64,000 nucleotides of DNA from Thermocoleostomius sinensis A174 (GTDB taxonomy: Bacteria > Cyanobacteriota > Cyanobacteriia > Elainellales > Elainellaceae): assembly GCF_026802175.1 (NCBI RefSeq), contig NZ_CP113797.1:5185026-5249025 (forward strand), read 5' to 3'. A program made the translations under genes and the position numbers. Position 1 is the stretch's first letter. The number at the start of each line of letters is the position of its first letter. Below the pieces are notes generated by a model that made no database searches, was not told where the DNA came from, and was given only the letters and a program-made list of their open reading frames with translations. Below, piece after piece: positions 12,423 to 64,000 of this stretch.

Positions 12423-13335
12423 GAGGGTGTTTGAAAAGATTTGAGGTGTCAAATTTATGCCAACCGCCTCACCATAATCCGAATCATGGCAAGGTAGATC
12501 AAGGTTTCTGATGTCTCTGGTAATAATTCATAGTCTCTGACCAACCGTCTGCATCCCATTAGCCAACCAAAAGTTCGTTCTACCACCCACCTCTTTTTGA
12601 GCAAGCTAAAGCCTTTGGTTTGCTCAGGTCGCAGTACAACTTGCACAATCCAACGACAAACATCCATCACCCACATCAGAAAAGGGGCGCCATCGAACCC
12701 GCCGTCTACCCAAATGGTGATTAAGCGTGAAACCTTTTTCTTCATCCGTTTGACTCGTTTGAGGACACGTTTGCCCCCTTCGCGTTCCCCCAGGTTTGCC
12801 GCACTCACAAACACCCGCAAAACCAGTCCTAACGTATCCACCGTTAAAAATCGTTTGCGTCCTGTAATCAGCTTGCCTCCATCAAAGCCAACTTGTTGAT
12901 GAACTCCTGCTGCACTCTTGATGCTTTGGCTATCGATGATCGCTTCTGATGGACTAGGATAGCGTTGCGCATCGATGCGAACCCACTGGTGCAACTGGTC
13001 ATGAATGGAAATCCAGGTGCCGTCCAATCGCCAGTTGCGGAAGTACGTGTACACCGTCTGCCAGGCTGGGAAATCACCAGGTAAAGAACGCCAACGACAG
13101 CCTTCAACCAGAACATAGAGCATGGCATTGAGCACCTCCCACAGGTCAACGCTGCGAGGACGACCACCTGGCTTTGCTGCTGGAATTAATTCACTCAAAA
13201 CCTCATATTGGGCGCGGGTTAGGTTACTGGGATATGCTTTACTCATCTGACTCACTCAGGGCTGTAGATATTTGCTATTCGCAGCCTACACTGAGTGAGC
13301 TTTTTTACGACCTTCCTGGCTTCTCAAACACCCTC
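12423..13335 (-). mobile_element. IS5-family insertion sequence, copy 1 (913 bp)
   Basis: A complete element with terminal inverted repeats GAGGGTGTTTGARAAG and one DDE transposase gene on the minus strand. It has the same length and ends as the copies at 21783, 25924 and 29025. The flanking triplets are TAA (12420-12422) and TTA (13336-13338), so unlike the other copies there is no matching TNA duplication. Genes on both sides are cut at their IS-facing 5' ends. Both points suggest rearrangement or deletion through this copy. Confidence 0.93.
12455..13255 (-). CDS. IS5 family transposase (copy 1)
   Basis: A 266-residue DDE transposase. The N-terminal part carries the DUF4096-type domain (LIPAAKPGGRPR, GCRWRSLPGDFPAWQTVY). 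The catalytic residues are Asp108 in IIDSQSIKSA, Asp184 in WVDGGFDG and Glu226 in WVVERTFGWL. The YREK-like final segment is RRLVRDYE. The gene is a single frame, so no programmed frameshift is needed. Its protein is identical to those of the other three copies in the window, which points to recent transposition and probable activity. Subgroup IS427/IS1031 is likely from the TNA target duplications seen at the other copies. Confidence 0.95.
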   Translation of the reverse strand: MSQMSKAYPSNLTRAQYEVLSELIPAAKPGGRPRSVDLWEVLNAMLYVLVEGCRWRSLPGDFPAWQTVYTYFRNWRLDGTWISIHDQLHQWVRIDAQRYPSPSEAIIDSQSIKSAAGVHQQVGFDGGKLITGRKRFLTVDTLGLVLRVFVSAANLGEREGGKRVLKRVKRMKKKVSRLITIWVDGGFDGAPFLMWVMDVCRWIVQVVLRPEQTKGFSLLKKRWVVERTFGWLMGCRRLVRDYELLPETSETLIYLAMIRIMVRRLA

Positions 13336-21782: not shown

Positions 21783-22695
21783 GAGGGTGTTTGAGAAGCC
21801 AGGAAGGTCGTAAAAAAGCTCACTCAGTGTAGGCTGCGAATAGCAAATATCTACAGCCCTGAGTGAGTCAGATGAGTAAAGCATATCCCAGTAACCTAAC
21901 CCGCGCCCAATATGAGGTTTTGAGTGAATTAATTCCAGCAGCAAAGCCAGGTGGTCGTCCTCGCAGCGTTGACCTGTGGGAGGTGCTCAATGCCATGCTC
22001 TATGTTCTGGTTGAAGGCTGTCGTTGGCGTTCTTTACCTGGTGATTTCCCAGCCTGGCAGACGGTGTACACGTACTTCCGCAACTGGCGATTGGACGGCA
22101 CCTGGATTTCCATTCATGACCAGTTGCACCAGTGGGTTCGCATCGATGCGCAACGCTATCCTAGTCCATCAGAAGCGATCATCGATAGCCAAAGCATCAA
22201 GAGTGCAGCAGGAGTTCATCAACAAGTTGGCTTTGATGGAGGCAAGCTGATTACAGGACGCAAACGATTTTTAACGGTGGATACGTTAGGACTGGTTTTG
22301 CGGGTGTTTGTGAGTGCGGCAAACCTGGGGGAACGCGAAGGGGGCAAACGTGTCCTCAAACGAGTCAAACGGATGAAGAAAAAGGTTTCACGCTTAATCA
22401 CCATTTGGGTAGACGGCGGGTTCGATGGCGCCCCTTTTCTGATGTGGGTGATGGATGTTTGTCGTTGGATTGTGCAAGTTGTACTGCGACCTGAGCAAAC
22501 CAAAGGCTTTAGCTTGCTCAAAAAGAGGTGGGTGGTAGAACGAACTTTTGGTTGGCTAATGGGATGCAGACGGTTGGTCAGAGACTATGAATTATTACCA
22601 GAGACATCAGAAACCTTGATCTACCTTGCCATGATTCGGATTATGGTGAGGCGGTTGGCATAAATTTGACACCTCAAATCTTTTCAAACACCCTC
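21783..22695 (+). mobile_element. IS5-family insertion sequence, copy 2 (913 bp)
   Basis: Complete, in plus orientation, with matching TTA target duplications at 21780-21782 and 22696-22698. It is inserted into the 3' end of a zinc-ribbon gene; removing the IS and one TTA restores an open frame. The matching duplications and restored frame show a simple insertion with no rearrangement at this copy. Confidence 0.95.
21863..22663 (+). CDS. IS5 family transposase (copy 2)
   Basis: A 266-residue DDE transposase, identical in protein sequence to copies 1, 3 and 4 (Asp108, Asp184, Glu226). This is the only copy on the plus strand. Confidence 0.95.
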   Translation: MSQMSKAYPSNLTRAQYEVLSELIPAAKPGGRPRSVDLWEVLNAMLYVLVEGCRWRSLPGDFPAWQTVYTYFRNWRLDGTWISIHDQLHQWVRIDAQRYPSPSEAIIDSQSIKSAAGVHQQVGFDGGKLITGRKRFLTVDTLGLVLRVFVSAANLGEREGGKRVLKRVKRMKKKVSRLITIWVDGGFDGAPFLMWVMDVCRWIVQVVLRPEQTKGFSLLKKRWVVERTFGWLMGCRRLVRDYELLPETSETLIYLAMIRIMVRRLA

Positions 22696-25923: not shown

Positions 25924-26836
25924 GAGGGTGTTTGAAAAGATTTGAGGTGTCAAATTTATGCCAACCGCCTCACCATAATCCGAATCATGGCAAGGTAGAT
26001 CAAGGTTTCTGATGTCTCTGGTAATAATTCATAGTCTCTGACCAACCGTCTGCATCCCATTAGCCAACCAAAAGTTCGTTCTACCACCCACCTCTTTTTG
26101 AGCAAGCTAAAGCCTTTGGTTTGCTCAGGTCGCAGTACAACTTGCACAATCCAACGACAAACATCCATCACCCACATCAGAAAAGGGGCGCCATCGAACC
26201 CGCCGTCTACCCAAATGGTGATTAAGCGTGAAACCTTTTTCTTCATCCGTTTGACTCGTTTGAGGACACGTTTGCCCCCTTCGCGTTCCCCCAGGTTTGC
26301 CGCACTCACAAACACCCGCAAAACCAGTCCTAACGTATCCACCGTTAAAAATCGTTTGCGTCCTGTAATCAGCTTGCCTCCATCAAAGCCAACTTGTTGA
26401 TGAACTCCTGCTGCACTCTTGATGCTTTGGCTATCGATGATCGCTTCTGATGGACTAGGATAGCGTTGCGCATCGATGCGAACCCACTGGTGCAACTGGT
26501 CATGAATGGAAATCCAGGTGCCGTCCAATCGCCAGTTGCGGAAGTACGTGTACACCGTCTGCCAGGCTGGGAAATCACCAGGTAAAGAACGCCAACGACA
26601 GCCTTCAACCAGAACATAGAGCATGGCATTGAGCACCTCCCACAGGTCAACGCTGCGAGGACGACCACCTGGCTTTGCTGCTGGAATTAATTCACTCAAA
26701 ACCTCATATTGGGCGCGGGTTAGGTTACTGGGATATGCTTTACTCATCTGACTCACTCAGGGCTGTAGATATTTGCTATTCGCAGCCTACACTGAGTGAG
26801 CTTTTTTACGACCTTCCTGGCTTCTCAAACACCCTC
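25924..26836 (-). mobile_element. IS5-family insertion sequence, copy 3 (913 bp), inside an attC box
   Basis: Complete, with TAA duplications at 25921-25923 and 26837-26839. The restored target reads ACC-TAA-C, which is the R' core box of attC-D. Insertion therefore split an integron recombination site between its R' box and the next cassette. Confidence 0.95.
25956..26756 (-). CDS. IS5 family transposase (copy 3)
   Basis: A 266-residue DDE transposase, identical to the other three copies. It faces away from the toxin-antitoxin cassette and toward the ankyrin gene. Confidence 0.95.
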   Translation of the reverse strand: MSQMSKAYPSNLTRAQYEVLSELIPAAKPGGRPRSVDLWEVLNAMLYVLVEGCRWRSLPGDFPAWQTVYTYFRNWRLDGTWISIHDQLHQWVRIDAQRYPSPSEAIIDSQSIKSAAGVHQQVGFDGGKLITGRKRFLTVDTLGLVLRVFVSAANLGEREGGKRVLKRVKRMKKKVSRLITIWVDGGFDGAPFLMWVMDVCRWIVQVVLRPEQTKGFSLLKKRWVVERTFGWLMGCRRLVRDYELLPETSETLIYLAMIRIMVRRLA

Positions 26837-29024: not shown

Positions 29025-29937
29025 GAGGGTGTTTGAAAAGATTTGAGGTGTCAAATTTATGCCAACCGCCTCACCATAATCCGAATCATGGCAAGGTAGA
29101 TCAAGGTTTCTGATGTCTCTGGTAATAATTCATAGTCTCTGACCAACCGTCTGCATCCCATTAGCCAACCAAAAGTTCGTTCTACCACCCACCTCTTTTT
29201 GAGCAAGCTAAAGCCTTTGGTTTGCTCAGGTCGCAGTACAACTTGCACAATCCAACGACAAACATCCATCACCCACATCAGAAAAGGGGCGCCATCGAAC
29301 CCGCCGTCTACCCAAATGGTGATTAAGCGTGAAACCTTTTTCTTCATCCGTTTGACTCGTTTGAGGACACGTTTGCCCCCTTCGCGTTCCCCCAGGTTTG
29401 CCGCACTCACAAACACCCGCAAAACCAGTCCTAACGTATCCACCGTTAAAAATCGTTTGCGTCCTGTAATCAGCTTGCCTCCATCAAAGCCAACTTGTTG
29501 ATGAACTCCTGCTGCACTCTTGATGCTTTGGCTATCGATGATCGCTTCTGATGGACTAGGATAGCGTTGCGCATCGATGCGAACCCACTGGTGCAACTGG
29601 TCATGAATGGAAATCCAGGTGCCGTCCAATCGCCAGTTGCGGAAGTACGTGTACACCGTCTGCCAGGCTGGGAAATCACCAGGTAAAGAACGCCAACGAC
29701 AGCCTTCAACCAGAACATAGAGCATGGCATTGAGCACCTCCCACAGGTCAACGCTGCGAGGACGACCACCTGGCTTTGCTGCTGGAATTAATTCACTCAA
29801 AACCTCATATTGGGCGCGGGTTAGGTTACTGGGATATGCTTTACTCATCTGACTCACTCAGGGCTGTAGATATTTGCTATTCGCAGCCTACACTGAGTGA
29901 GCTTTTTTACGACCTTCCTGGCTTCTCAAACACCCTC
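29025..29937 (-). mobile_element. IS5-family insertion sequence, copy 4 (913 bp)
   Basis: Complete, with TAA duplications at 29022-29024 and 29938-29940. It lies between the last cassette gene and a stretch of gene fragments, so it marks the edge of the array. Minus orientation. Confidence 0.95.
29057..29857 (-). CDS. IS5 family transposase (copy 4)
   Basis: A 266-residue DDE transposase, identical to copies 1-3. Its direction is the same as the DUF6232 gene, so read-through from the IS could drive that gene. Confidence 0.95.
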   Translation of the reverse strand: MSQMSKAYPSNLTRAQYEVLSELIPAAKPGGRPRSVDLWEVLNAMLYVLVEGCRWRSLPGDFPAWQTVYTYFRNWRLDGTWISIHDQLHQWVRIDAQRYPSPSEAIIDSQSIKSAAGVHQQVGFDGGKLITGRKRFLTVDTLGLVLRVFVSAANLGEREGGKRVLKRVKRMKKKVSRLITIWVDGGFDGAPFLMWVMDVCRWIVQVVLRPEQTKGFSLLKKRWVVERTFGWLMGCRRLVRDYELLPETSETLIYLAMIRIMVRRLA

Positions 29938-30343: not shown

Positions 30344-30645
30344 ATGAAAGCCATCACGAATCTGGTTACAATGGTTATGCTACTGGGAATGCTGAATCTC
30401 GGCGCAGTTATACCTGCCGCTGCTGACTCATTACTTGCTGAAGAATCGGTAATTGAAGCGAGTGATTTTAATTCAAGTTCGGCTTTTTCTGCGGTGATAT
30501 TGCTCAACTGCAAAGGGTTGCTAACCAGCTTCAGCAGACCTGGGGTCCGCTTCGCCCTGCGATTCAAGCCTACGGTAACGTAGATCTGCTGCAAAAGGGA
30601 GACACCTTAGTTTCGCTGGTGGCCATGTCACGCTATTGCCATTGA
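30344..30645 (+). pseudogene. decayed paralogue of the secreted protein at 61998
   Basis: A good start (GGAG nearby) opens a signal peptide, MKAITNLVTMVMLLGMLNLG then VIPAAADS. After about 50 codons the informative reading moves to another frame, which gives IAQLQRVANQLQQTWGPLRP and ends at TGA 30643-30645. That segment matches MAQLQSTASQIEQTWSALRP in the 259-residue protein at 61998-62777. The middle of the protein is missing, so this is a deletion-plus-frameshift relic. Confidence 0.6.
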
Positions 30646-53195: not shown

Positions 53196-53224
53196 TTCAC
53201 TGTAGGAAGCGGGGGTCAAGAACT
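53196..53224 (-). promoter_or_regulatory. bipartite promoter motif, copy 1
   Basis: On the minus strand AGTTCTTGAC (53224-53215) and CTACAGTGAA (53205-53196) with 9 bp between them. The ATG of the PepSY gene is 33 bp downstream. The same two blocks with the same 9-bp spacing precede the genes at 61586 (minus) and 61998 (plus). Confidence 0.75.
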
Positions 53225-53356
53225 TGGAAAGATCTTGCTCTAGATTGAAGAAAATACTCTACCGTAATGCTGCTAGCGTAATCCTGAGCTTCACTGTGCT
53301 ACGGTGAATTTGTCTCTGTGAGCAACACGAATGAATGAGCAACGCCATCCGTGTGA

Positions 53357-53551
53357 GGGCGCAATCAAAACTACACTAACCAAACTCCGCAGGGTAAACA
53401 AGATGAGATCAGGGCGAAGGCAGATTACAAAACCAATGTCAAAGCTGAAGAGGAGATTGAAATAATTCTCCAACATTTAGAGAACCAGAACAGAGAGATG
53501 GAGGAAATTAAACAACTTCTAGAGAAGTTACAGCACTCTGATAGTGCTTGA
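53357..53551 (+). pseudogene. 3' fragment of a DUF1003 gene
   Basis: 64 codons: GKQDEIRAKADYKTNVKAEE, then EIEIILQHLENQNREMEEIK and a TGA at 53551. This is the coiled-coil end of DUF1003 membrane proteins (RDRxxAxxDYxxNLKAExEI). The two membrane helices that should come first are missing; a stop (TGA 53354-53356) precedes the open stretch. Confidence 0.65.
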
Positions 53552-53583
53552 ATCACTTTTTCTCACTTCTTAAAATAAACTCT

Positions 53584-54654
53584 ATGAACTGGATGAACCG
53601 ATTTCCCTGGTGGATAAATTTGAGCTTAGCAATCATTTTGTTGGCTCTAGATGTCTGGATTATTTTCCAACTTTTTCAATTTTTTCACTCTGTCATCGCA
53701 ATTGTAGTTATCGCAACCTTGCTGTCGTTTATTTTGGAATATCCGGTCTATTGGCTACATCGGTTTAGAGTGCCTCGGTTACAAGCTATTTTATTAACTT
53801 TGACAGTAGCACTGCTGCTTTTGATTGTTTTAGGCATAACACTTATCCCTGCTTTAATCGAGCAGATCGATCAGCTTGCCAAACAACTTCCAACCTGGAT
53901 TCAATCAGGGACTCAACAGCTAACACTCTTACAAAGTTGGGCACAATCCCGTAACTTACCAGTTGACCTGGGAAAGCTAATTACTCGATTGGAAGATCGA
54001 TTATCTAATCAACTGCAAGTTTTGAGCGGTGGTGTATTGACTGTATTGTTAGATCTCGTCGGTCGCCTGTTAGATTTACTTATTACGATTGTTCTAACCT
54101 TTTACCTACTGCTACATGGCGATCGTCTTTGGGATGGGATTTTCCAATGGTTTCCTGCAACTTTACAGATACAAACACGGCAAGCCCTCAAACAAAATTT
54201 TCATAACTACTTTGTGGGTCAATCAACACTTGCCCTATTGATGGGAAGTGCAATGACAATTAGCTTTTTAGTATTACAAGTTCCTTTTGGATTGCTATTT
54301 GGGTTAGGCATTGGTGTAATGGCACTGTTTCCCTTTGGAGCTAGCTTGAGCATCGTCACAGTCAGTCTTTTGTTAGCACTACAAAACATTTGGTTAGGCA
54401 TTAAAGTTTTGATTGTTGCCTTTTTAGTTGATTTGGTAATTGAAAATGCGATCGCTCCACAACTAATTGGTAAGTTTACAGGACTAAATCCTGCTTGGAT
54501 TTTAGTATCCCTGCTGATTGGGGCAAAAATAGGAGGCATATTGGGCGTAATTTTGGCAGTACCAATCGCTAGCTTCATCAAAAGTATGTTGGAGTATTTT
54601 TATAGGGGCAACGCTCTACCGCAGACAAAGATAAATCCTGATGTCATTGATTGA
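53584..54654 (+). CDS. AI-2E family transporter (first of a convergent pair)
   Basis: About 356 residues with seven or eight membrane helices. The family pattern is clear: LSLAIILLALDVWIIFQLFQ at the start, VVIATLLSFILEYPVYWL, a long amphipathic middle (LIEQIDQLAKQLPTWIQSG), and GLNPAWILVSLLIGAKIGGI then LAVPIASFIKSML near the end. The GLNPxxIxxSLLIGxxxxGxxG box is the strongest signature. The family includes quorum-signal and cation/proton antiport proteins; the substrate is unknown. I chose the ATG at 53584; TTG at 53548 is possible. It is convergent with a paralogue at 54740. Confidence 0.9.
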   Translation: MNWMNRFPWWINLSLAIILLALDVWIIFQLFQFFHSVIAIVVIATLLSFILEYPVYWLHRFRVPRLQAILLTLTVALLLLIVLGITLIPALIEQIDQLAKQLPTWIQSGTQQLTLLQSWAQSRNLPVDLGKLITRLEDRLSNQLQVLSGGVLTVLLDLVGRLLDLLITIVLTFYLLLHGDRLWDGIFQWFPATLQIQTRQALKQNFHNYFVGQSTLALLMGSAMTISFLVLQVPFGLLFGLGIGVMALFPFGASLSIVTVSLLLALQNIWLGIKVLIVAFLVDLVIENAIAPQLIGKFTGLNPAWILVSLLIGAKIGGILGVILAVPIASFIKSMLEYFYRGNALPQTKINPDVID

Positions 54655-54739
54655 CAATGCTTAACTCAGCGAGTGAGGTTGGTAATAAAGGTACTTTTGC
54701 AAAGGATGCTGATAATTCATTGATATTAATTATTGATAT

Positions 54740-55816
54740 CTATAATTCGTCACCTTGCTGCTCCAGTGGTAATGTCGCCTGCGTTTGCATTAGCTCTTCA
54801 AATATCCGTTTGAGCGATCCCGCGAGTGGCACCGCTAATATTAGCCCCAATACCCCAGCTAACTGTGAACCAATGAGCAGTGAAAGCAAAATCCAAATTG
54901 GATTTAAACCAATCAGGTTTCCTAAAATCTTTGGTGTAACAGCATTGTCAACGACTTGATCGATTATTAGTGCAACGATCGCCAACTCGCCCCCCAAAAT
55001 GACGCTCTTAAAGCTGATAATGACTGCGGATGTGAAAATACCAATTGTGTCTCCAAACGGAATTAAAGCGAGTAGACCGATGCTAGTACCAAACACGAGC
55101 CAATAGGGAATTTTGAGTATAAAGAAAGCTATTGTCAACGCTGTAGCCATCAGCAGAGCGATCGTGAATTGCCCAATAAAATAACTTCTAAACTGCTCTT
55201 GAAACGCAATCCGAACTTGGTTGCCGACCTCGCCTGGCAGCCAACGTAACAAGCCATTCCAAAACTTCTCTCCATGCAATAGCAAGTAGAGTGTAAACAC
55301 GATTGTAATGAGGACTTCTACAAGGCGATCGGCAATGCCCAAAATGATTTCAGCAGCCTGATTCGGTAAATCAGCAACTTCATTTGGAAGCATTTGTGTC
55401 AGTTTGGTTGCTATCGCTGTGACGTTGAGAGGGACATGCCGTGCTGCAAGCCAGGTATCTAGTGCCTGAAATTGCTGGCTGCCTGAGTCTAACCAAACAG
55501 GCAGACGATCGGACAATTCTCGCAGTTGTTGCAGGAGTATCGGCAGCAGGTTAAAACCAAGAACTCCCAATAAACTCAATGTGATGAGCAGAATTAGAAC
55601 AATACTGAAACCAGATTGAATCCCGAACTTTTCGATCTGACGAATTGGATAGCCCAATAGAAATGACAACAAGGTTGCCACAATTAGAATGGTAAACGGC
55701 GTTTGAAATGTTTGAAAGATTTTGTAGAACAGCCAAAGGTTCAGACATGTTAGGGGTACAGCAATCTCATACACCAGCCAGCGGGGGAGTTTGTCAAATC
55801 CTAGCATTGTAAACAT
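54740..55816 (-). CDS. AI-2E family transporter (second of a convergent pair)
   Basis: 358 residues, paralogous to the protein at 53584 over the full length. Shared features are WLFYKIFQTFQTPFTILIVA near the start, ELSDRLPVWLDSGSQQFQ in the middle and GLNPIWILLSLLIGSQLAGV then LAVPLAGSLKRIFEEL at the end. The two genes face each other with an 85-bp gap, so they arose by duplication and inversion or by independent gain. The start ATG at 55816 is 40 bp from a relic gene. The substrate is unknown. Confidence 0.9.
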   Translation of the reverse strand: MFTMLGFDKLPRWLVYEIAVPLTCLNLWLFYKIFQTFQTPFTILIVATLLSFLLGYPIRQIEKFGIQSGFSIVLILLITLSLLGVLGFNLLPILLQQLRELSDRLPVWLDSGSQQFQALDTWLAARHVPLNVTAIATKLTQMLPNEVADLPNQAAEIILGIADRLVEVLITIVFTLYLLLHGEKFWNGLLRWLPGEVGNQVRIAFQEQFRSYFIGQFTIALLMATALTIAFFILKIPYWLVFGTSIGLLALIPFGDTIGIFTSAVIISFKSVILGGELAIVALIIDQVVDNAVTPKILGNLIGLNPIWILLSLLIGSQLAGVLGLILAVPLAGSLKRIFEELMQTQATLPLEQQGDEL

Positions 55817-55854
55817 GGTAGTAACTGAACGTTTCCTGTCACGATAGATCTAGA

Positions 55855-56193
55855 TTAGGTACTCAGCGACACGCCTAATAAACGCCCGATGCCAAAGGTA
55901 ATTCCCGATGCTGCTAACCCAAACAAAACCTGACGGCTTCCTGAAAATAAAACGCTCCGACCAGTCAGGAGGGTAATACCTGCACCAATCAGGAACAAAG
56001 CCAAACCGCTCAGGAGTAAGCTGATCCAAAGCGCGATCGCACCCTGCAAAAATAGAAACGGCAACACTGGGATAATCGCTCCTGCTGCAAACAGAAAAAA
56101 CGAAGTCAGTCCTGCCATCCAGGCCGAGCCACCCAATTCCTCTGGATCGATATGATGCGTTCCAGAAGGGTGGAAAATCGATGAATTCGTCAT
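55855..56193 (-). pseudogene. VIT1/CCC1-type transporter, C-terminal half only
   Basis: 112 codons that match the last third of VIT1/CCC1 family iron/manganese transporters: HHIDPEELGGSAWMAGLTSF, then LFAAGAIIPVLPFLF and SRQVLFGLAASGITFGIGRL. The family is usually at least 220 residues with five helices; here the first two helices and the metal-binding stretch are absent. The frame does have an ATG (MTNSSIFHPSGT), so a short product is possible, but function is doubtful. Confidence 0.65.
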
Positions 56194-56266
56194 AATCGTT
56201 GTTTAGTGTGATAAGACAGTCATTGAATTGAGTGGTTAAAACAACAGTTGAAATCACAGCTAATCT

Positions 56267-58933
56267 TCATAGCTGGGAATAAAAATTGGGGTCGTTTAAC
56301 TGCTGGATTAGAATTGCTACCAGGGCAGTCCATCCAGTCTGCTGACTGGCACCCAACCCAAACCCGGTATCCCCATGAAAGTATTCATGGAAAAACAACA
56401 AATCTTGCCAATGGGGATCGTGCTGAAAGGGTTGTATCTCGCCATACATGGGCCGTTGACCATTGGGTTGTTTGCGAAATAAGTTGACCAACCGCTGGGA
56501 TAACTCCTGCGCCACCTCCTTGAGAGTCATGTACTTGCCTGATCCGGTTGGGCACTCCACCTGAAAGGAATCACCAAAGTAGCGATAGTACCGCTGTAGA
56601 GATTCAATCAACAGATAATTCATCGGAAACCAGATGGGGCCGCGCCAGTTGGAATTTCCGCCAAAGTCTCCCGTAGTTGATTCGGCAGGTTCATAGTTGA
56701 CGGAATAAGAATGGCCCTGGTAGTTCAACACATAAGGATGCTCCAGATGATAGCGAGACAAAGAACGAATGCCATAGGGGGAGAGAAATTCGTCTTCATT
56801 TAAGAGATGGCTAAGAATGCGTTTGAGTTGATCTGGCTTGGCGATCGCAAATAAAATTCGTTCCGTTTCTCCAGGGACTGACAGAAACGCACAGTTATCA
56901 AATAAGTCAGGTCGCTTTTGCTCTAGCCAATCTAGATCTTCCTTTAGCTCTGGCTCTAGGGTAAACGGTTCAGGTTCAAAAATAGCTACGGCAAATAGGG
57001 GGGCTAATCCCTCCAGGCTATAGACCTGAATCCGAATTTCCTGCCCATCGGGAAGCACTAGGGCACTGAAGTAAAAGCCGTCCGCCTCATCCCAGAGAGA
57101 CAACTGGTTGTCTTGACCGATCTGATTCATTGCCTGAGCAATGCTGAGGGCGTGGCGCAGGAAAATGCAAGCCATCTGCCGATAGACCCGATCGTAGCAA
57201 CCTAACTCGATGGCGATCCGCAAGAGATTCAACGAAAACATCCCCATCCAGGCTGTCCCGTCGGCTTGCTCCAGATAGCCTCCTGTGGGCAGGGGCGCAC
57301 TCCGGTTGAAGATGGTAATGTTATCGAGTCCCAGGAATCCCCCCTGAAACAAATCGTTTTCCCCTTTATCCTCCAGATTCGTCCACCAATAATAGTTACC
57401 CAAAACCCTGTGAAAGATCTGCTCTAGAAAGACGCGATCGCCAATTCCCGTCGTTTCCTTTTCGTATTGATAGACCTTCCAGGCAGCCCAGGCTTGTATC
57501 GGCGGATTGACATCGCCAAAAGCCCATTCATAGGCAGGAATCTGCCCATTCAGATTGGTGTATCGCTTTCCACAGAGCAACAGCAATTGCTGTTTGGCAA
57601 AGTGCACATCCACCAGGGACAACACCACACAGTGAAACGACCAATCCCAGGCAGCAAACCAGGGATACTCCCAGGCATCGGGCATGGAGATGACATCCTT
57701 GGCATAGAGCATTTGCCAGTGGGCGTTACGCCCCGTCAGCCGGAATGCCGACGGCTTCGGTTCCGCAGGATCGCCCTGCAACCAGGTGTAGACATCGTAG
57801 TAATAAAACTGTTTACTCCACAGCAACGCTGCGATCGCCTGCCGTTGCACCAATCGATCATCCGGGCTGGCGTGGGGCAGCAAGGTTGCATAAAACTCAT
57901 CTGCTTCTTGTTGTCTCTGATGAAATACCTTATCAAAATCATCATTAAAGGCTGCATCAACAGGCTGGTTAGTAAAGCGTAACTGCACTGTAACCGTCTG
58001 CTGGGCAGGTACCGTTAGATGATAGTGAGCCGCTGCCTTAGTCCCGATCAACTGGGGATTCACCGCTGCCCGATCGCCGTCAATCAGATAAGTATGAAAG
58101 GCATCCTTGACGTAGGGGGTGGGATTGGCAGAATTAAAGATTCGTTTGCAATTGGTTTCGTTATTGGTAAACAGCAGGGTTGGAGTCTGCCCCTGGAAGG
58201 CATCACAGTACAGCCAGCGAGTGCCAAGAGCAGGATGCTTGAGTTGAATAATCCCAGCATCTGCCCGAAAAAGATGTCCGGGAGGCTGCTCGCCTTTCCA
58301 ACTCCAGGTGTTGCGTAACCAGAGGGTTGGTAGCACATCCAGTGGGGCGGGATTACTACCACGATTGGCGATGTGGAGTCGAATACAAATCTCTTCTGGG
58401 GATGCTTTGGCATATTCGGCTTCGATGTCAAAGTAGCGATCGCCCTCAAAGATCCCAGTATCGATTAATTCATATTCCGGTTGTTGGCGAGATCGTTCTC
58501 CATTTACCCTTACGAGTTCGTCATAGGGGTAAGCTTGCTGGGGATACTTATATCGCCAGCGCATATAGGCATGGCTGGGAGTGTTATCCACATAAAAGTA
58601 GTATTCTTTGACATCTTCACCGTGATTTCCTTCGCTATTGGTGAGACCAAACAATCGCTCTTTCAGGATCGGATCTTGCCCATTCCAAAAAGCCAGCGCG
58701 AAACAAACTTCCCCGTTCTCATCACAAAAGCCGCCTAATCCGTCTTCGCCCCAACGGTAAGCCCGCGATCGAGCCTGATCGTGAGGAAAATAATTCCAGG
58801 CATCACCGTAGTCCGAGTAGTCCTCTCGTACCGTGCCCCATTGCCGTTCACTCAGATACGATCCCCACCGATACCAGTTTGCCTTGCCTTGAGCATTGTC
58901 GTGAATTCGCTGTTGCTCTGCATTCGTCACCAT
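56267..58933 (-). CDS. GH63-like (MGH1-type) glucosidase
   Basis: 888 residues, the length of bacterial proteins annotated as glucosidases with a mannosyl-oligosaccharide glucosidase-like (alpha/alpha)6 barrel. Typical parts are RWGSYLSERQWGTVREDYSD at the N-terminus, EYPWFAAWDWSFHCVVLSLV in the barrel (WDWSFH), GQIPAYEWAFGDVNPPIQAW (PAYEWxF-DVNPP), and GNSNWRGPIWFPMNYLLIES near the end. The acid/base residues of GH63 are expected in WDW and EW segments; I cannot fix them exactly. It may act on glucosylglycerate/trehalose-like or maltose-type substrates. The gene is alone in its orientation block. Confidence 0.87.
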   Translation of the reverse strand: MVTNAEQQRIHDNAQGKANWYRWGSYLSERQWGTVREDYSDYGDAWNYFPHDQARSRAYRWGEDGLGGFCDENGEVCFALAFWNGQDPILKERLFGLTNSEGNHGEDVKEYYFYVDNTPSHAYMRWRYKYPQQAYPYDELVRVNGERSRQQPEYELIDTGIFEGDRYFDIEAEYAKASPEEICIRLHIANRGSNPAPLDVLPTLWLRNTWSWKGEQPPGHLFRADAGIIQLKHPALGTRWLYCDAFQGQTPTLLFTNNETNCKRIFNSANPTPYVKDAFHTYLIDGDRAAVNPQLIGTKAAAHYHLTVPAQQTVTVQLRFTNQPVDAAFNDDFDKVFHQRQQEADEFYATLLPHASPDDRLVQRQAIAALLWSKQFYYYDVYTWLQGDPAEPKPSAFRLTGRNAHWQMLYAKDVISMPDAWEYPWFAAWDWSFHCVVLSLVDVHFAKQQLLLLCGKRYTNLNGQIPAYEWAFGDVNPPIQAWAAWKVYQYEKETTGIGDRVFLEQIFHRVLGNYYWWTNLEDKGENDLFQGGFLGLDNITIFNRSAPLPTGGYLEQADGTAWMGMFSLNLLRIAIELGCYDRVYRQMACIFLRHALSIAQAMNQIGQDNQLSLWDEADGFYFSALVLPDGQEIRIQVYSLEGLAPLFAVAIFEPEPFTLEPELKEDLDWLEQKRPDLFDNCAFLSVPGETERILFAIAKPDQLKRILSHLLNEDEFLSPYGIRSLSRYHLEHPYVLNYQGHSYSVNYEPAESTTGDFGGNSNWRGPIWFPMNYLLIESLQRYYRYFGDSFQVECPTGSGKYMTLKEVAQELSQRLVNLFRKQPNGQRPMYGEIQPFQHDPHWQDLLFFHEYFHGDTGFGLGASQQTGWTALVAILIQQLNDPNFYSQL

Positions 58934-58960
58934 ATCTGCACAGGTTCCAAACCATCCTGG

Positions 58961-59347
58961 TTAGGCTAACCCAATTAGGCTGACGCACAAAATTCCCAGG
59001 ACAACCAGCGTAATTGCCACATAAAGATGATCCCGCTGCTTCCAAAAAGCAACTGCTGAAAAGGCAACCCGTGCAATGGGAGTCGCAATTAATAGCAATA
59101 AACCGAATTGAATCAGTCCTCGCCGTTGCAGCAGCAAAGCCTCTGAGACAATGCCTGCGGGCGATCGCAAGCTCGACGGTTCACCTCGAAAAATGTGATA
59201 GTCCGGAGTCGTGTTGCCGTAATGAAATAAATACAGAACGCCACCCAATGCAACAACTCCGGCTGCCAATAGCACTCCAAATCGGAGTAGATTCCCCACT
59301 GTTTGCTCAATCTGTTCATCACTCCATGTTCGAGTCCGTCTACCCAT
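58961..59347 (-). CDS. DUF1634 membrane protein
   Basis: 128 residues with three membrane helices: NLLRFGVLLAAGVVALGGVL, then GLIQFGLLLLIATPIARVAF and YVAITLVVLGILCVSLIGL. DUF1634 proteins are found next to TSUP permeases, and this one starts one base after the TSUP gene stop, so the two are translationally coupled. It is thought to be a partner subunit of the permease. Confidence 0.88.
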   Translation of the reverse strand: MGRRTRTWSDEQIEQTVGNLLRFGVLLAAGVVALGGVLYLFHYGNTTPDYHIFRGEPSSLRSPAGIVSEALLLQRRGLIQFGLLLLIATPIARVAFSAVAFWKQRDHLYVAITLVVLGILCVSLIGLA

Positions 59348-59348
59348 T

Positions 59349-60194
59349 TCACAACCTGCCAGTTAAGCCATTAAAAATCATCTGAATTGCCAAAATGAAA
59401 ATCACTACGCTAAAGACTTTACGGAGCAGTTGTGGTCTAGCATAAACCAGCATTCGCGCTCCCCAGAGTGACCCTGCCAACACCCCCAACATCACCGGCA
59501 TCGACAACCCAGGATCAATATAACCTCGACTTAAGTACACACCTGCACCGGCGGCGGCGGTTACCCCAATCATAAAGTTGCTGGTGGTCGTTGATACCTT
59601 AAATGGAAGTTGCATGACTTGATCCATCGCCAGAACCTTGACCGCCCCTGAACCAATGCCCAGCAAGCCAGATAAGGTTCCTGCGGTGAACATTAAGCCA
59701 AATCCCAACGGAACGTTCTGTACATGGTAGGATTGTGAGCCTTCCGACGTAGGGTAGCTTCCATCGAGCCGTAGGCGAGTTGCAACTGGGTCAGGTTGGG
59801 CATCCAGTGGATGATCTTGATGGCGTTGGTTAGAAAGATAGGCAGAGTACAACAAGACAGCACCAAAGATGATTGCGATGACTGATGTGGATAGTTTGGC
59901 TGCCAAAAATGCCCCCACTAAGGCACCAATGGTTGTGGCCACTTCCAAAAACATTCCAATCCGGATATTGGTGTAGCCTTCCTTAACATAAGCAGCGGCG
60001 GCTCCTGAAGAGGTCGCAATCACCGAAATTAAAGAAGCCCCGATCGCATAACGCATATCGACTCCAAAACCGAGAGTCAGCAGCGGCACCAGGACAACAC
60101 CACCCCCCAGTCCAGTTAGAGCACCGATAAAACCTGCCCCAATCGAACTGAAAGCAAGCAATACTGTAAGTTCAAACACAGTTAGCTGAGACAT
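59349..60194 (-). CDS. TSUP (TauE/SafE) family permease
   Basis: 281 residues with eight membrane helices. The two TSUP repeats are seen: AFSSIGAGFIGALTGLGGGV (with GxGGG) in the first half, and LMFTAGTLSGLLGIGSGAVK (GIGSG) in the second. The family exports or imports sulfite, sulfonates or other organic anions; the substrate is not known. The gene is followed by DUF1634. The start ATG at 60194 is preceded by a weak GGGGC. Confidence 0.92.
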   Translation of the reverse strand: MSQLTVFELTVLLAFSSIGAGFIGALTGLGGGVVLVPLLTLGFGVDMRYAIGASLISVIATSSGAAAAYVKEGYTNIRIGMFLEVATTIGALVGAFLAAKLSTSVIAIIFGAVLLYSAYLSNQRHQDHPLDAQPDPVATRLRLDGSYPTSEGSQSYHVQNVPLGFGLMFTAGTLSGLLGIGSGAVKVLAMDQVMQLPFKVSTTTSNFMIGVTAAAGAGVYLSRGYIDPGLSMPVMLGVLAGSLWGARMLVYARPQLLRKVFSVVIFILAIQMIFNGLTGRL

Positions 60195-60398
60195 CGCCCC
60201 AGATCATTCCTTGGATTTTTGAATTTGCCGATATGTTCCCATGACTGGACTGAGATGTCTATCCAGAGTCGAAGCGAAGACACTATAACGCAATTGGCTT
60301 AAAGCGCAGATGTGAAAGCAAACTTCACACCTGCACTCGCTACGCAGTGGTGTCTGAATCAATGGCAAGATTAGAGGATATTACCACCAGATGAGACA

Positions 60399-61046
60399 AT
60401 GCATAGCACCTTTTCCTTTATGCTGGGAACCCTTGCTGCGCTGTTTCCAATTGCCAATCCAATTGGAGCGATTCCTATTTTTTACAGTCTCACAGCCAAC
60501 GATACGCCTAAATACCGCCTGCGACAGGCTCAGAAAACAACCTTTAATGTGTTTATTGTCCTGGTTTCATTTTTTCTAATCGGTAAGCTTATTCTTGGCT
60601 TCTTTGGCATTTCGTTAGGAGTACTACGCATTGCAGGCGGCCTAATCGTTGCCCATACTGCTTGGGAAATGGTCACTGCACGGCAACGGCTCACAACAAA
60701 AGAACATGAAGAAGCCGTTGACAAAGAAGATATTTCCTTTACTCCAATGGCAGTTCCCATGATTAGTGGGCCGGGTGCGATCGGGGTGATCATTGGCTTC
60801 TCAACCCGATCCCATCTGTGGAGTGAATATCTGGGCAGTTTCCTAGGGATTCTGATGTTTAGCGTTGTGCTGTATCTATGTTTAGTTCTAGGAGAACCCC
60901 TGATAGAGAAATTTGGGACAACTGGCATGGGTGCACTCAATCGAATTTTAGGATTTTTGATTTTGGCGATCGCGGTACAACTCATCGCTGAAGGAACAAT
61001 TGAGATCTTGAAAACTACAATACCTGGTATAGGGCAGAACGGATAA
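60399..61046 (+). CDS. MarC family membrane protein
   Basis: 215 residues with six membrane helices. The family motifs are LFPIANPIGAIPIFYSLT at the N-terminus, GGLIVAHTAWEMV in helix 3, and FTPMAVPMISGPGAIGVIIG in helix 4 (the PLxxGPGxI box). MarC proteins are small integral membrane proteins whose transport role is not clear. It is divergent from the TSUP gene. The start follows a weak GACAATG context. Confidence 0.9.
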   Translation: MHSTFSFMLGTLAALFPIANPIGAIPIFYSLTANDTPKYRLRQAQKTTFNVFIVLVSFFLIGKLILGFFGISLGVLRIAGGLIVAHTAWEMVTARQRLTTKEHEEAVDKEDISFTPMAVPMISGPGAIGVIIGFSTRSHLWSEYLGSFLGILMFSVVLYLCLVLGEPLIEKFGTTGMGALNRILGFLILAIAVQLIAEGTIEILKTTIPGIGQNG

Positions 61047-61104
61047 CTTTGTGAATGTGCAAGAGTTTATCGGGATCTCCCTTTACCGGGAATAATAAGC
61101 GGAG

Positions 61105-61139
61105 AAAAAACCTCGCCTTGATTTGTTCAAAGCGAGGTT
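61105..61139 (-). terminator. intrinsic terminator
   Basis: On the minus strand AACCTCGC...GCGAGGTT forms an 8-bp stem with a 15-nt loop and is followed by TTTTTT. It lies 40 bp after the stop of the secreted RD-rich protein gene (61179). Confidence 0.8.
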
Positions 61140-61178
61140 GCGATTCAAAGGCGTTAGAGAAGACGTAGCTGTTGGAAT

Positions 61179-61586
61179 TTATCGCCTCGAATTTCCTCGA
61201 TCGCTGCGACCTCCATCATTATGACCGCTGCGTCCCATACCGCCGCGATCCCGCCCTCTGTCATCATGATCTTCTCTAGAACGCCCTCTATCATTACGAC
61301 CCCGATCGCCCCGCCCTCTATCATCACGATTTCTCTTGGCTGGCTGACCGCCGCGATCAGGCGATGTTGAATCCTGAATATTATCTCGATCTCGCCGCCC
61401 CGGATCGGATGATACAGTGTCTTGAAGATTGTCTCGATCGCGTGTTTTGTGGGATGCAGCACTAACCGTGTGGGTTTGAGCATTCAGCGAGTTAGATGGA
61501 GCCGCGAACGCAGAGCGAGCAAAACCGGTCAGTCCAATGGTGCTGATGAAGGCAACAGCAATTAAACCTCTCATGATCTTTTTCAT
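61179..61586 (-). CDS. exported Arg/Asp/Gly-rich low-complexity protein
   Basis: 135 residues. A signal peptide (MRGLIAVAFISTIGLTGFAR, cut near AFA) precedes a low-complexity mature part built of DRDN, DRG and GRG repeats (for example DRGRGDRGRNDRGRSREDHD). Polymers of this kind may bind nucleic acid, metal or phosphate at the surface, but no family is known. Expression is probably controlled by the bipartite motif at 61693-61721. The gene ends with a good terminator. The signal peptide resembles that of the PepSY protein at 52606 and the protein at 61998. Confidence 0.8.
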   Translation of the reverse strand: MKKIMRGLIAVAFISTIGLTGFARSAFAAPSNSLNAQTHTVSAASHKTRDRDNLQDTVSSDPGRRDRDNIQDSTSPDRGGQPAKRNRDDRGRGDRGRNDRGRSREDHDDRGRDRGGMGRSGHNDGGRSDRGNSRR

Positions 61587-61692
61587 GTTCTAAATTCTCC
61601 TTATTTTGAATCCCGAACGTTTTTTGTGAACAAACCTTAAACTCTTGAAGAAATGCAGCGACGAGTGTTTTTTCAAGGTTTAAGTTTGTATT

Positions 61693-61721
61693 TTCACTGT
61701 AGGGTGATAGAGGCAAGAACT
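61693..61721 (-). promoter_or_regulatory. bipartite promoter motif, copy 2
   Basis: On the minus strand AGTTCTTGCC (61721-61712) and CTACAGTGAA (61702-61693) with 9 bp between them. It lies about 107 bp before the ATG of the RD-rich protein. Blocks and spacing match the copies at 53196 and 61940. Confidence 0.75.
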
Positions 61722-61939
61722 TGGAAAGACTGAGAAAAGATTGTTGTGGGGTATTGGTATGTGTTCATCGCAGGTGCATCCCCGGCATGGGCGTAGCAGG
61801 TGGTCTACTTCTGTATAACCAAAGAACCGGAACTGCGATCGAACTTCCGCATCGAGAGTGGCTAGTTCGTATTTGTATTGGTTTTCAAAGTCAAAGTGCA
61901 GCGCGATTAAAAATCTCAAATGACCTTCGAGCCTTGCGG

Positions 61940-61968
61940 AGTTCTTGACTTTTTGTTTCTAGAGTGAA
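61940..61968 (+). promoter_or_regulatory. bipartite promoter motif, copy 3
   Basis: AGTTCTTGAC (61940-61949) and CTAGAGTGAA (61959-61968) with 9 bp between them, 29 bp before the ATG at 61998. A GCTATT -10 candidate follows the TTGACT of block 1 by 18 bp, so block 1 may include the -35. Confidence 0.75.
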
Positions 61969-61997: not shown

Positions 61998-62777
61998 ATG
62001 AAAAAGAGATTTCTAGTTGCAATTGCACTGCTTGGCACTCTTGGTGTTGCTGGAATAGCCCGTAGTTTCGCTGGGAGTCAACCACAAAGAACTGTTGCTG
62101 TTGTAGCTCAGCCTCAAGTAATAGCAACGGCAGCATCTAGCCAACGCAAGGAACTGAGTACTACAGCCAATGATCCTCTCAACGATACCGATACCGAAGT
62201 TCAAGATAATCAAGTGCCGCAAGCCCTTAGCAACGTAGGTGAGTATGGTGAGCAGGTATATGATATGGCAAAGATTGGTGACTGGGCTAAAGCTCAAGCT
62301 GATTTAACAACCCTCCAACAGTCAGTTCAACAACTCAGCCAGCAGTCACCCAGCAACCATTCGCACCTTCTCTCCCTCAGAAATAGGGTGGCTCGGCTCA
62401 GTCAGGCGGTAGAAGCAAAAGATCAACAGGCGACGCAACACTATGCCAATCAGGTGACTCTAATCGCAGCCCAAATGACTCAGCCATACCCAACAAAAGT
62501 ACCTATCGAAGTCACTCTATTAGACTATTATGGTCGTCAGCTTGAAGTTGACGCAGCTAGTAGTAACATGGCTCAACTCCAGTCCACAGCTAGTCAAATT
62601 GAGCAAACCTGGAGTGCGCTACGTCCAGTCATTGTGAGTCACGGTGGCAGTGCTGAGGCGCAACAGTTTGATGGTCTTGTTGCCAAGGCAAAGCAGGCTA
62701 AATCAGTTACTGACTATAGTCAGTTAGCTACCCCAATTCTTGACCAGGTAGATCAATTAGAAGCCGTTTTCAAATAG
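61998..62777 (+). CDS. exported hypothetical protein
   Basis: 259 residues. A signal peptide (RFLVAIALLGTLGVAGIARS) is followed by a helical mature part with many Gln (LTTLQQSVQQLSQQSPSNHS, then MAQLQSTASQIEQTWSALRP). A decayed relative lies at 30344. The pattern of two four-helix blocks recalls periplasmic metal-binding or stress proteins but no name can be given. GGAAAGGAG lies before the ATG. It has the bipartite motif of copy 3. Confidence 0.78.
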   Translation: MKKRFLVAIALLGTLGVAGIARSFAGSQPQRTVAVVAQPQVIATAASSQRKELSTTANDPLNDTDTEVQDNQVPQALSNVGEYGEQVYDMAKIGDWAKAQADLTTLQQSVQQLSQQSPSNHSHLLSLRNRVARLSQAVEAKDQQATQHYANQVTLIAAQMTQPYPTKVPIEVTLLDYYGRQLEVDAASSNMAQLQSTASQIEQTWSALRPVIVSHGGSAEAQQFDGLVAKAKQAKSVTDYSQLATPILDQVDQLEAVFK

Positions 62778-62811: not shown

Positions 62812-63062
62812 ATCAAACATCCTGCGTCTGTCTGCCAACGCTTCAATTACTGGGGGACTTTCGACCCAATTGCTCGGTCAGAGTCCCCCAAAGTCCAGCC
62901 CTAGTAGACATTCAAGCAAGGGGAATTTAGGGGATAGATTCGGTTTAATCCTCTTGTGATAATGTTCAGCCGTAAGCTTCCCTGATGGCTACGATCGAGT
63001 TACTCTGATGGTTGAAACGGGCGGATAGATCATTGATAGATCAAAGAATCAGTGGGGGAAAT

Positions 63063-64000
63063 GTGCTGACGTGGCGATCGCGACTTGGCATTTGGACAGC
63101 CGCCTTGCTAACGGGCATCGTTGGACTTGTCAATCTAGTGTCTGCTGTTACGCCCAGGGTTGCGGCACGAGTAGAATTACTCCGCGAGATTTTTCCGTTC
63201 CAGGTTCGGGCAGGTGCCCACTTATTTGCCGTGCTGGCGGGCTTTATTCTTTTGACCCTTGCCTCCAGTCTGTTGCGTCGTAAGCGGGTGGCATGGCTGC
63301 TCACGCTGGTGTTGCTAGCCGTCTCGATGATTAGCAATCTAGTCAAAGGGCTGGACTACGAAGAGAGTATCCTGGCGGGCGTACTCTTCGTGCAATTGCT
63401 TTTAATGCGAAAGTGGTTTACGGCACGATCCGATCGTCCGTCTCTGACTCGCGGGGTGCAGGTGCTATTGGCAGCCCTTTTGTTCACACTAGCCTATGGC
63501 ACGCTGGGGTTTTATCTCCTAGATAGAGAATTCAACCAGCAGTTCGATCTATGGGAAGCACTGAATCAAACCCTGGCGATGTTTTTCACGGCTGATAATG
63601 GGGGACTAGAACCGACGAATCGCTTTGGTCGGTTTTTCGCCAATTCCGTAGAATGGGTTGGGCTACTGACCGTACTCTATGCCCTATGGATGTTGTTGCG
63701 TCCTGTGCTGTTGCGATCGGGAGCAACACCGGAAGAACGGCAAAAAGCTCGGTTGATTGTAGAGCAGTATGGGCGATCGTCCCTTGCCCGATTCGCCTTG
63801 TTGGATGACAAAGTGTACTACTTTAGTCCGTCAGATCGTAGCGTTATTGCCTATGCTCAGAAAGGACGAGGGGCGATCGCACTCGGCGATCCCATTGGTC
63901 CATCAGATGATCGGCGTGAGGCAATCATCGGCTTTCAGCAGTTTTGTGCCCGAAATGATTGGCTGCCCGCCTTTTACCAAACCCTACCGGATGATGTGGC
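63063..64000 (+). CDS. MprF-like membrane protein with DUF2156, 3' part outside window
   Basis: The frame is open from GTG 63063 (GGGGGA before it) to the end of the window, at least 312 codons. The first 210 residues hold about six membrane helices (LLTGIVGLVNLVSAVTP, AHLFAVLAGFILLTLASSLL and others). A conserved block, MFFTADNGGLEPTNRFGRFF, precedes the start of the DUF2156 domain (GRSSLARFALLDDKVYYFSP, then RGAIALGDPIGP). MprF-type proteins add lysine or other residues to phosphatidylglycerol, or act without transfer as DUF2156 hydrolase-like proteins. A fragment of a paralogue lies at 30054. Confidence 0.88.
   Translation, partial: MLTWRSRLGIWTAALLTGIVGLVNLVSAVTPRVAARVELLREIFPFQVRAGAHLFAVLAGFILLTLASSLLRRKRVAWLLTLVLLAVSMISNLVKGLDYEESILAGVLFVQLLLMRKWFTARSDRPSLTRGVQVLLAALLFTLAYGTLGFYLLDREFNQQFDLWEALNQTLAMFFTADNGGLEPTNRFGRFFANSVEWVGLLTVLYALWMLLRPVLLRSGATPEERQKARLIVEQYGRSSLARFALLDDKVYYFSPSDRSVIAYAQKGRGAIALGDPIGPSDDRREAIIGFQQFCARNDWLPAFYQTLPDDV

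Follow-up and report, generated by a model that had tools for sequence, protein, structure and literature searches.

The window analyzed in this study is a stretch of 64,000 nucleotides from the chromosome of the cyanobacterium Thermocoleostomius sinensis A174 (RefSeq assembly GCF_026802175.1, contig NZ_CP113797.1, positions 5,185,026–5,249,025). It contains three genes for secreted proteins, i.e., a PepSY-domain protein, an arginine/aspartate-rich (RD-rich) protein, and a protein of 259 amino acids (aa), each preceded by the same bipartite motif (Table 1). An earlier note, made by eye, had described this motif as AGTTCTTGMC-N9-CTASAGTGAA and had tentatively attributed it to one regulator or sigma factor for an envelope response. 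Copies without mismatches were found at 53196-53224(-), 61693-61721(-), and 61940-61968(+), each directed at its gene, with gaps of 32, 106, and 29 bases, respectively, between the motif and the start codon. When up to three mismatches were allowed, the window yielded the same three copies only; 0.03 were expected by shuffling, and three copies were reached in none of 100 shuffles. The copies and their spacing were thus confirmed, as was, by comparison of the three products, the likeness of their signal peptides. From the sequence evidence, the motif most likely serves one sensor–regulator pair as docking site and promoter; in many cyanobacteria, this pair would activate envelope genes and perhaps genes for protection against metals.

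The earlier note had also proposed a genome-wide search for the motif. In the 5.81-Mb chromosome, the bare pattern with up to three mismatches gave six matches, compared with three for the reversed pattern. The six comprised the three copies of the window, a fourth with two mismatches located 2 kb after the end of the window, and two that have three mismatches and look like chance; because the reversed pattern gives three, only the best four of the six are convincing. A profile constructed from sequence only (R1; 42 positions, 54 of 77 aligned sites, the other 23, mostly weaker, having been dropped by eye) detected six sites in the whole genome, with E values of 2.0e-7 to 2.1e-5 (27.3–33.7 bits), and the next match had E = 0.016 (18.1 bits). 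Five of these sites are clustered within 13 kb (5238220-5251195) and precede the PepSY, RD-rich, 259-aa, and 67-aa genes and, in divergent orientation, a lipoprotein gene that has a PepSY_TM-like gene behind it. The sixth lies 77 kb from the cluster and precedes a gene for a 191-aa protein, a relative of which in genome G090 (42% identity over 125 aa) likewise has the element.

The structure of the element was then derived from a larger set of sites. In the window copies, a further TCTTnnC occurs 11 base pairs (bp) upstream of TTCTTGAC, represented in the third copy by CCTTGCG at 61932. To avoid selective choice, we collected every exact TTCTTGAC from the surroundings of known sites and orthologous kinases (769 kb, 88 distinct sites) and then inspected the flanks. 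TCTT..C stood 11 bp before the repeat, and positions +18, +19, and +23 from the TTCTTGAC start were T, A, and T, whereas neither TCTT..C nor TA...T was found at 45 TTCTTGAC sites in 1407 kb around related, more distant regulators. Strong conservation of the right-hand block across genomes was limited to TA...T. Based on the flank profile of the 88 sites, we define the element as TTCTTnnC-nag-TTCTTGAC-N10-TAnnnT, i.e., two 8-bp direct repeats with a 3-bp linker and a period of 11 bp, followed by 10 bp to TAnnnT. The earlier reader had found a correct part of a longer element. TAnnnT was present at the expected place in 108 of 113 sites of ≥ 22 bits, the profile having been trained on such sites, and at 16–18 bp upstream of TAnnnT no hexamer matched TTGACA at more than three of six positions in any of the 113 sites. 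Because TTGAC lies 9 bp from TAnnnT (TASAGT in the window) and no good -35 hexamer was found, we interpret TTGAC as part of an activator box, and the earlier suggestion that it doubles as the -35 element does not hold. OmpR/PhoB-family regulators bind tandem repeats of 11-bp period. The tandem repeats of about 11 bp, the TAN3T about 10 bp downstream, and the absence of a good -35 hexamer correspond to a promoter of the OmpR/PhoB type.

Two other promoter types were considered. Two conserved blocks at fixed spacing in front of genes for exported proteins could be read as the -35 and -10 of a promoter recognized by a dedicated alternative sigma factor, e.g., of the extracytoplasmic function (ECF) group. 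We consider this very improbable: the third block, TCTTnnC, has the same sequence as the second, stands one helical turn upstream, and would be superfluous in a two-element sigma promoter; the downstream block shrinks to TAnnnT, a -10 of the housekeeping type; the spacing from TTGAC to TAnnnT is 9 bp; and the linked regulator is a response regulator. The special sigma factor of the earlier note is thus unsupported, and an alternative-sigma promoter, which would have no upstream activator repeat, was rejected. The site before the 67-aa gene is near-palindromic (TTGACCTTCGC..GCTAAAGTCAA), and at some sites A/T-rich hexamers occur 19–20 bp after TTGAC, as would be expected of a MerR-type operator with a dyad in a 19–20-bp spacer and TTGAC as the -35. 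The profile of the 88 sites has no conserved right-hand GTCAA arm, its symmetry is direct with 11 bp, and the palindrome occurs at one site alone, so the MerR type was also rejected and is, in our judgment, highly improbable.

The site cluster in this genome (G000) ends just beyond the window with genes for a membrane kinase and a response regulator. Regulator orthologs (67–98%) adjoin site-bearing PepSY genes in genomes G013, G019, and G124. The earlier note had pointed to a different two-component pair, at 35–37 kb of the window; no site lies near that pair, whose regulator shares only about 34% identity with the motif-linked one.

Table 1. Features of the three proposed promoters and their genes, additional genomic sites, and the linked two-component pair. 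Positions up to 64,000 refer to the window and seven-digit positions to the chromosome.
Feature	Position	Strand	Basis or remark
Secreted PepSY-domain protein, 185 aa	52606..53163	-	Pfam PF03413, E 1.3e-7
Predicted -10 TACAGT, PepSY promoter, 10 bp from repeat	53199..53204	-	sequence
Downstream direct repeat TTCTTGAC, PepSY promoter, 11 bp from first	53215..53222	-	sequence
Upstream direct repeat ATCTTTCC, PepSY promoter	53226..53233	-	sequence
Secreted RD-rich protein, 135 aa	61179..61586	-	no family match
Predicted -10 TACAGT, RD-rich gene promoter	61696..61701	-	sequence
Downstream direct repeat TTCTTGCC, RD-rich gene promoter	61712..61719	-	sequence
Upstream direct repeat GTCTTTCC, RD-rich gene promoter	61723..61730	-	sequence
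Upstream direct repeat GCCTTGCG, weaker, 259-aa gene promoter	61931..61938	+	sequence
Downstream direct repeat TTCTTGAC, 259-aa gene promoter	61942..61949	+	sequence
Predicted -10 TAGAGT, 259-aa gene promoter	61960..61965	+	sequence
Secreted 259-aa protein	61998..62777	+	no confident family
Lysyl-phosphatidylglycerol (lysyl-PG) synthase gene, start (extends beyond window)	63012..64000	+	Pfam PF09924, E 1.1e-87
Additional genomic site	5161485-5161519	+	profile search
Additional genomic site	5251003-5251041	-	profile search
Additional genomic site	5251158-5251195	+	profile search
Membrane kinase of RppA/PmrA-like pair	G000:C1:5252181-5253407		pair (5252181-5254118) 3–5 kb beyond window end
Response regulator of the pair	G000:C1:5253426-5254118		Response_reg + Trans_reg_C domains

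The presence of the element depended steeply on the identity of the neighboring regulator to this linked regulator: a site was found at 36 of 43 loci with ≥ 60% identity, 1 of 3 with 55–60%, and 1 of 78 with 38–55%, and the reversed-sequence control gave 0 sites in every bin. The claim of one shared regulator was supported. In a leave-one-locus-out analysis, which dropped a locus's own sites and retained those of near relatives, a site of ≥ 22 bits was found in 31 of 39 loci chosen by kinase similarity vs. 1 of 78 related-regulator loci, and the lone positive among the latter (L050, Pseudanabaena sp. ULC068bin1) holds a 66% ortholog. A profile built from 25 sites that lie outside the 39 loci detected sites in 26 of the 39 kinase loci and 0 of the 78 related-regulator loci. 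The kinase loci (L160–L198) were fetched in order of kinase similarity, excluding loci already sampled and the second copies G296:C2:198167 and G231:C107; one of the 40 loci requested was a 3.2-kb piece (L157) and was excluded. Based on sequence comparisons of this kind, we consider it quite probable that the element is a response-regulator-dependent promoter served by the linked RppA/PmrA-like pair.

We also analyzed co-occurrence at the genome level. The kinase (E ≤ 1e-60) was found in 120 of the 388 genomes of the class and the element (E ≤ 0.01) in 82; 58 had both (p = 2.7e-17), with a profile partly trained near kinases. Among 103 listed sites (E ≤ 4.3e-4), 54 lay ≤ 15 kb from one of 63 listed kinase positions. 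The bare pattern was accompanied by the kinase in 14 of 22 genomes (p = 0.001), and the reversed pattern in 6 of 10 (p = 0.05); because the reversed pattern gave a similar result, bare-pattern co-occurrence is weak evidence, and we therefore relied on the neighborhood tests. None of 17 non-cyanobacterial genomes had a match at E ≤ 0.1, a weak negative with no positive among them; of 17 genomes reached via cyanobacterial regulator loci, only six had a match at E ≤ 0.01.

Along with this behavior of the reversed pattern, the following observations weigh against a promoter served by the linked pair. No kinase match at E ≤ 1e-60 was found in 24 of the 82 site-bearing genomes, and one such genome has eight sites in a single region (G142:C2:60830-72321), where LptF/LptG and peptidoglycan-binding genes are the neighbors. 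The other 49 of the 103 listed sites are elsewhere or on other contigs, and 8 of the 39 kinase-chosen loci were below the 22-bit threshold. In G000, no site stands in front of the regulator's own gene, and the upstream repeat of the copy at 61932 is weak. In favor of the linked pair, L163, L167, and L172 have a site in front of the regulator gene; in L044 and L169 one stands before the kinase gene, and both arrangements suggest autoregulation at those loci.

To these genomic data we added plasmids. The kinase was detected in 13 of 72,556 plasmid records, eight of them predicted to be conjugative, and 6 of the 13 were examined as held-out, annotated records (hosts: Chroococcidiopsis thermalis PCC 7203, Tolypothrix sp. 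PCC 7712, Anabaena cylindrica PCC 7122, Brasilonema octagenarum UFV-E1, Nostoc linckia NIES-25, and Nostoc sp. C052). All six had at least two sites of ≥ 25 bits, and the maximum in reversed sequence was 14.1. Sites stood immediately before annotated PepSY genes (L273, L274, and L275) and “peptidase” genes (L276 and L277), directly before the A. cylindrica gene for DUF347, and, on pCHRO.01, before aquaporin, bestrophin, and GGDEF genes. Among the plasmid neighbors are genes for efflux pumps of the CzcA/CusA type, P-type ATPases for heavy metals, and DUF305 proteins.

The affiliation of the pair was examined with curated models. The best named NCBIfam models were of the RppA type for the regulator (235.4 bits, cut-off 250) and the RppB type for the kinase (261.5 bits, cut-off 400), and neither cut-off was reached. 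The second-best named model for the regulator, PmrA (BasR), gave 200.1 bits against a cut-off of 330, and PhoB gave 190.8 bits against 296.2. The pair thus resembles RppA/RppB (NrsR/NrsS, nickel/redox) in its best models, its OmpR/PhoB class, and its metal-resistance neighborhoods on plasmids, and differs in the missed cut-offs and in that a separate, annotated rppA/rppB pair exists on pCHRO.01. It could be supposed that a different OmpR/PhoB-family regulator, i.e., a PhoB/SphR-like or RppA/NrsR-like paralog, binds the element and that the linked pair is a mere neighbor. In favor of this, pCHRO.01 has the true rppA/rppB as well as other pairs close to the element, 24 genomes have sites and no detected kinase, and the boxes of SphR, with repeat CTTAACCT, share the geometry of 8-bp repeats and 3-bp linker; the steep dependence on identity to the linked regulator, the PhoB score, and the absence of phosphate (pst/pho) genes among the target families recognized speak against it, and we regard such a paralog as unlikely.

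The element was also compared with known boxes. In the box of Escherichia coli PhoB (PMC1906773), a 3-bp linker separates two repeats of 8 bp each, and a -10 of TAN3T/A follows after 10 bp; the element has this geometry, shared in its repeats and linker by the cyanobacterial SphR box, but its repeat TTCTTGAC differs from both CTTAACCT and the PhoB sequence, and its targets are non-phosphate genes. A Pho box of a PhoB–SphR Pho regulon was therefore rejected. In the enterobacterial PmrA (BasR) box (PMC3973317), 5 bp lie between the half-sites CTTAAT and CCTAAG; CTTTCC-N5-CTTGAC of the element shares the spacing and CTT, whereas its half-sites end in nC/GAC rather than AAG/AAT, and the PmrA cut-off is far off.

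We next analyzed the genes downstream of the element. In all loci scanned (1148 kb), 123 sites exceeded 17 bits, compared with one in reversed sequence. PepSY genes were downstream at 26 of the 123 sites vs. 7 of 600 positions drawn at random from these loci, and DUF347 genes at 16 vs. 14 of 600; HtrA-like genes followed at seven sites, the 259-aa family at six, and PAP2, LCM-type methyltransferase, and RTX-repeat genes at four each, other families being fewer, while 36 sites had none of the listed families downstream. These counts are indicative only, because the reference set had itself been taken from target genes, certain slices were approximate, and near-duplicates (G000/G013) and overlapping loci (L179/L260) were included. 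Moreover, because L040–L049 and L246–L265 were chosen for holding sites or the 259-aa gene, the flank profile, the 1148-kb scan, and the family counts are partly ascertained. Representative targets matched Pfam families DUF347 (E = 3.9e-63), PAP2 (5e-23), LPG_synthase_C (4.7e-85), Trypsin_2/PDZ (1.6e-35), LptF_LptG (8.2e-91), and PG_binding_1 (1.1e-18). The sites of the HtrA genes were weaker (21.8–30.6 bits). The genome of the window yielded no DUF347 match, and neither did the control genomes of that search. The predicted targets across genomes, with PepSY, DUF347, PAP2, lysyl-PG synthase, and HtrA genes among them, would form an envelope regulon, often adjoining metal-efflux genes; the envelope response proposed earlier is supported.

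In the mechanism that we propose, the kinase would sense an envelope or metal signal and phosphorylate the regulator. Two DNA-binding domains of the phosphorylated regulator would then bind the repeats TTCTTnnC-nag-TTCTTGAC head-to-tail, one helical turn apart, and the bound regulator would fill the -35 region and position the housekeeping RNA polymerase on TAnnnT, exactly 10 bp downstream. As the outcome, small secreted PepSY-type proteins, the lysyl-PG synthase region, and further envelope genes would be switched on. The inducing stress is probably envelope or metal stress. A metal signal is suggested by the metal-resistance genes near plasmid sites, a cation-efflux gene upstream of the regulator in G000, and the induction by lead in Frankia, where operons of DUF347 and undecaprenyl-phosphatase-type (UppP) genes rise, according to PMC4531530. 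In cyanobacteria, the element stands before genes for DUF347 proteins and PAP2 phosphatases, but Frankia belongs to another phylum, and its phosphatase is of the UppP rather than the PAP2 family. The metal reading is weakened by the kinase sensor (residues 1–190, 36 sequences), in which no Cys or His was among the positions conserved at ≥ 80%; W79, G91, and R134 are conserved. The lysyl-PG, PAP2, and HtrA targets would also fit a general envelope stress.

Although the kind of system, a two-component regulon of the OmpR/PhoB family, is well known, no description of this operator or regulon was found in open-access PubMed Central (PMC) full text; subscription papers were outside the search, so this is no proof of absence. 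TTCTTGAC occurs within polymerase chain reaction primers in PMC3126725 and PMC5258700. We tentatively suggest that the system may be an undescribed cyanobacterial envelope/metal stress regulon, in which one kinase–regulator pair and a 34-bp element would act as a functional counterpart of PmrAB/Cpx-type systems, controlling synthesis of the surface-charge lipid lysyl-PG, lipid-phosphate phosphatases, PepSY and transport-like DUF347 proteins, and HtrA proteases in certain lineages, with the module also carried on conjugative plasmids with heavy-metal efflux genes. The motif seen by eye thereby becomes an operator that can be tested and for which a candidate regulator can be named, and many “hypothetical” secreted or membrane genes (PepSY, DUF347, DUF2127 neighbors, and the 259-aa family) are grouped into one cyanobacterial regulon. 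Envelope-stress signaling in cyanobacteria is thinly described, and the element offers ready-made reporters in culturable strains, of which A. cylindrica PCC 7122, Tolypothrix sp. PCC 7712/7601, and C. thermalis PCC 7203 have the kinase ortholog on a plasmid.

Finally, we examined the individual genes. PepSY proteins under the element, including that of the window, end in an invariant C-terminal SSIQV outside the PepSY domain (8 of 8 aligned sequences). A relative of the RD-rich protein in G013 (69% identical) and relatives of the 259-aa protein in G013 (95%) and G040 (56%) also carry the site. The G040 gene (G040:C1:1772306-1772932) has two in-frame TAG stops and has kept the promoter element, and is perhaps a decaying gene. 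In the window, a 42-aa stretch at 30490-30615(+) is 43% identical to residues 188–229 of the 259-aa protein and is possibly a broken second copy of its gene. The lysyl-PG synthase gene starts 234 bp downstream of the 259-aa gene, with which it is possibly co-transcribed, and a separate LPG_synthase_TM gene also follows; because a site stands 71 bp before a synthase homolog in G124, we presume that the regulon of the window's genome includes the synthase too. Elsewhere in the window, two similar-looking permease open reading frames (ORFs) are convergent, at 53548-54654(+) and 54740-55816(-), and the first matches the AI-2E transporter family. Four ORFs of equal length (266 aa, GTG start) lie at 12455-13255(-), 21863-22663(+), 25956-26756(-), and 29057-29857(-); two of them were scanned and proved to be DDE transposases of the IS4/5 type whose family scores are identical, and the four are therefore probably copies of one insertion sequence.

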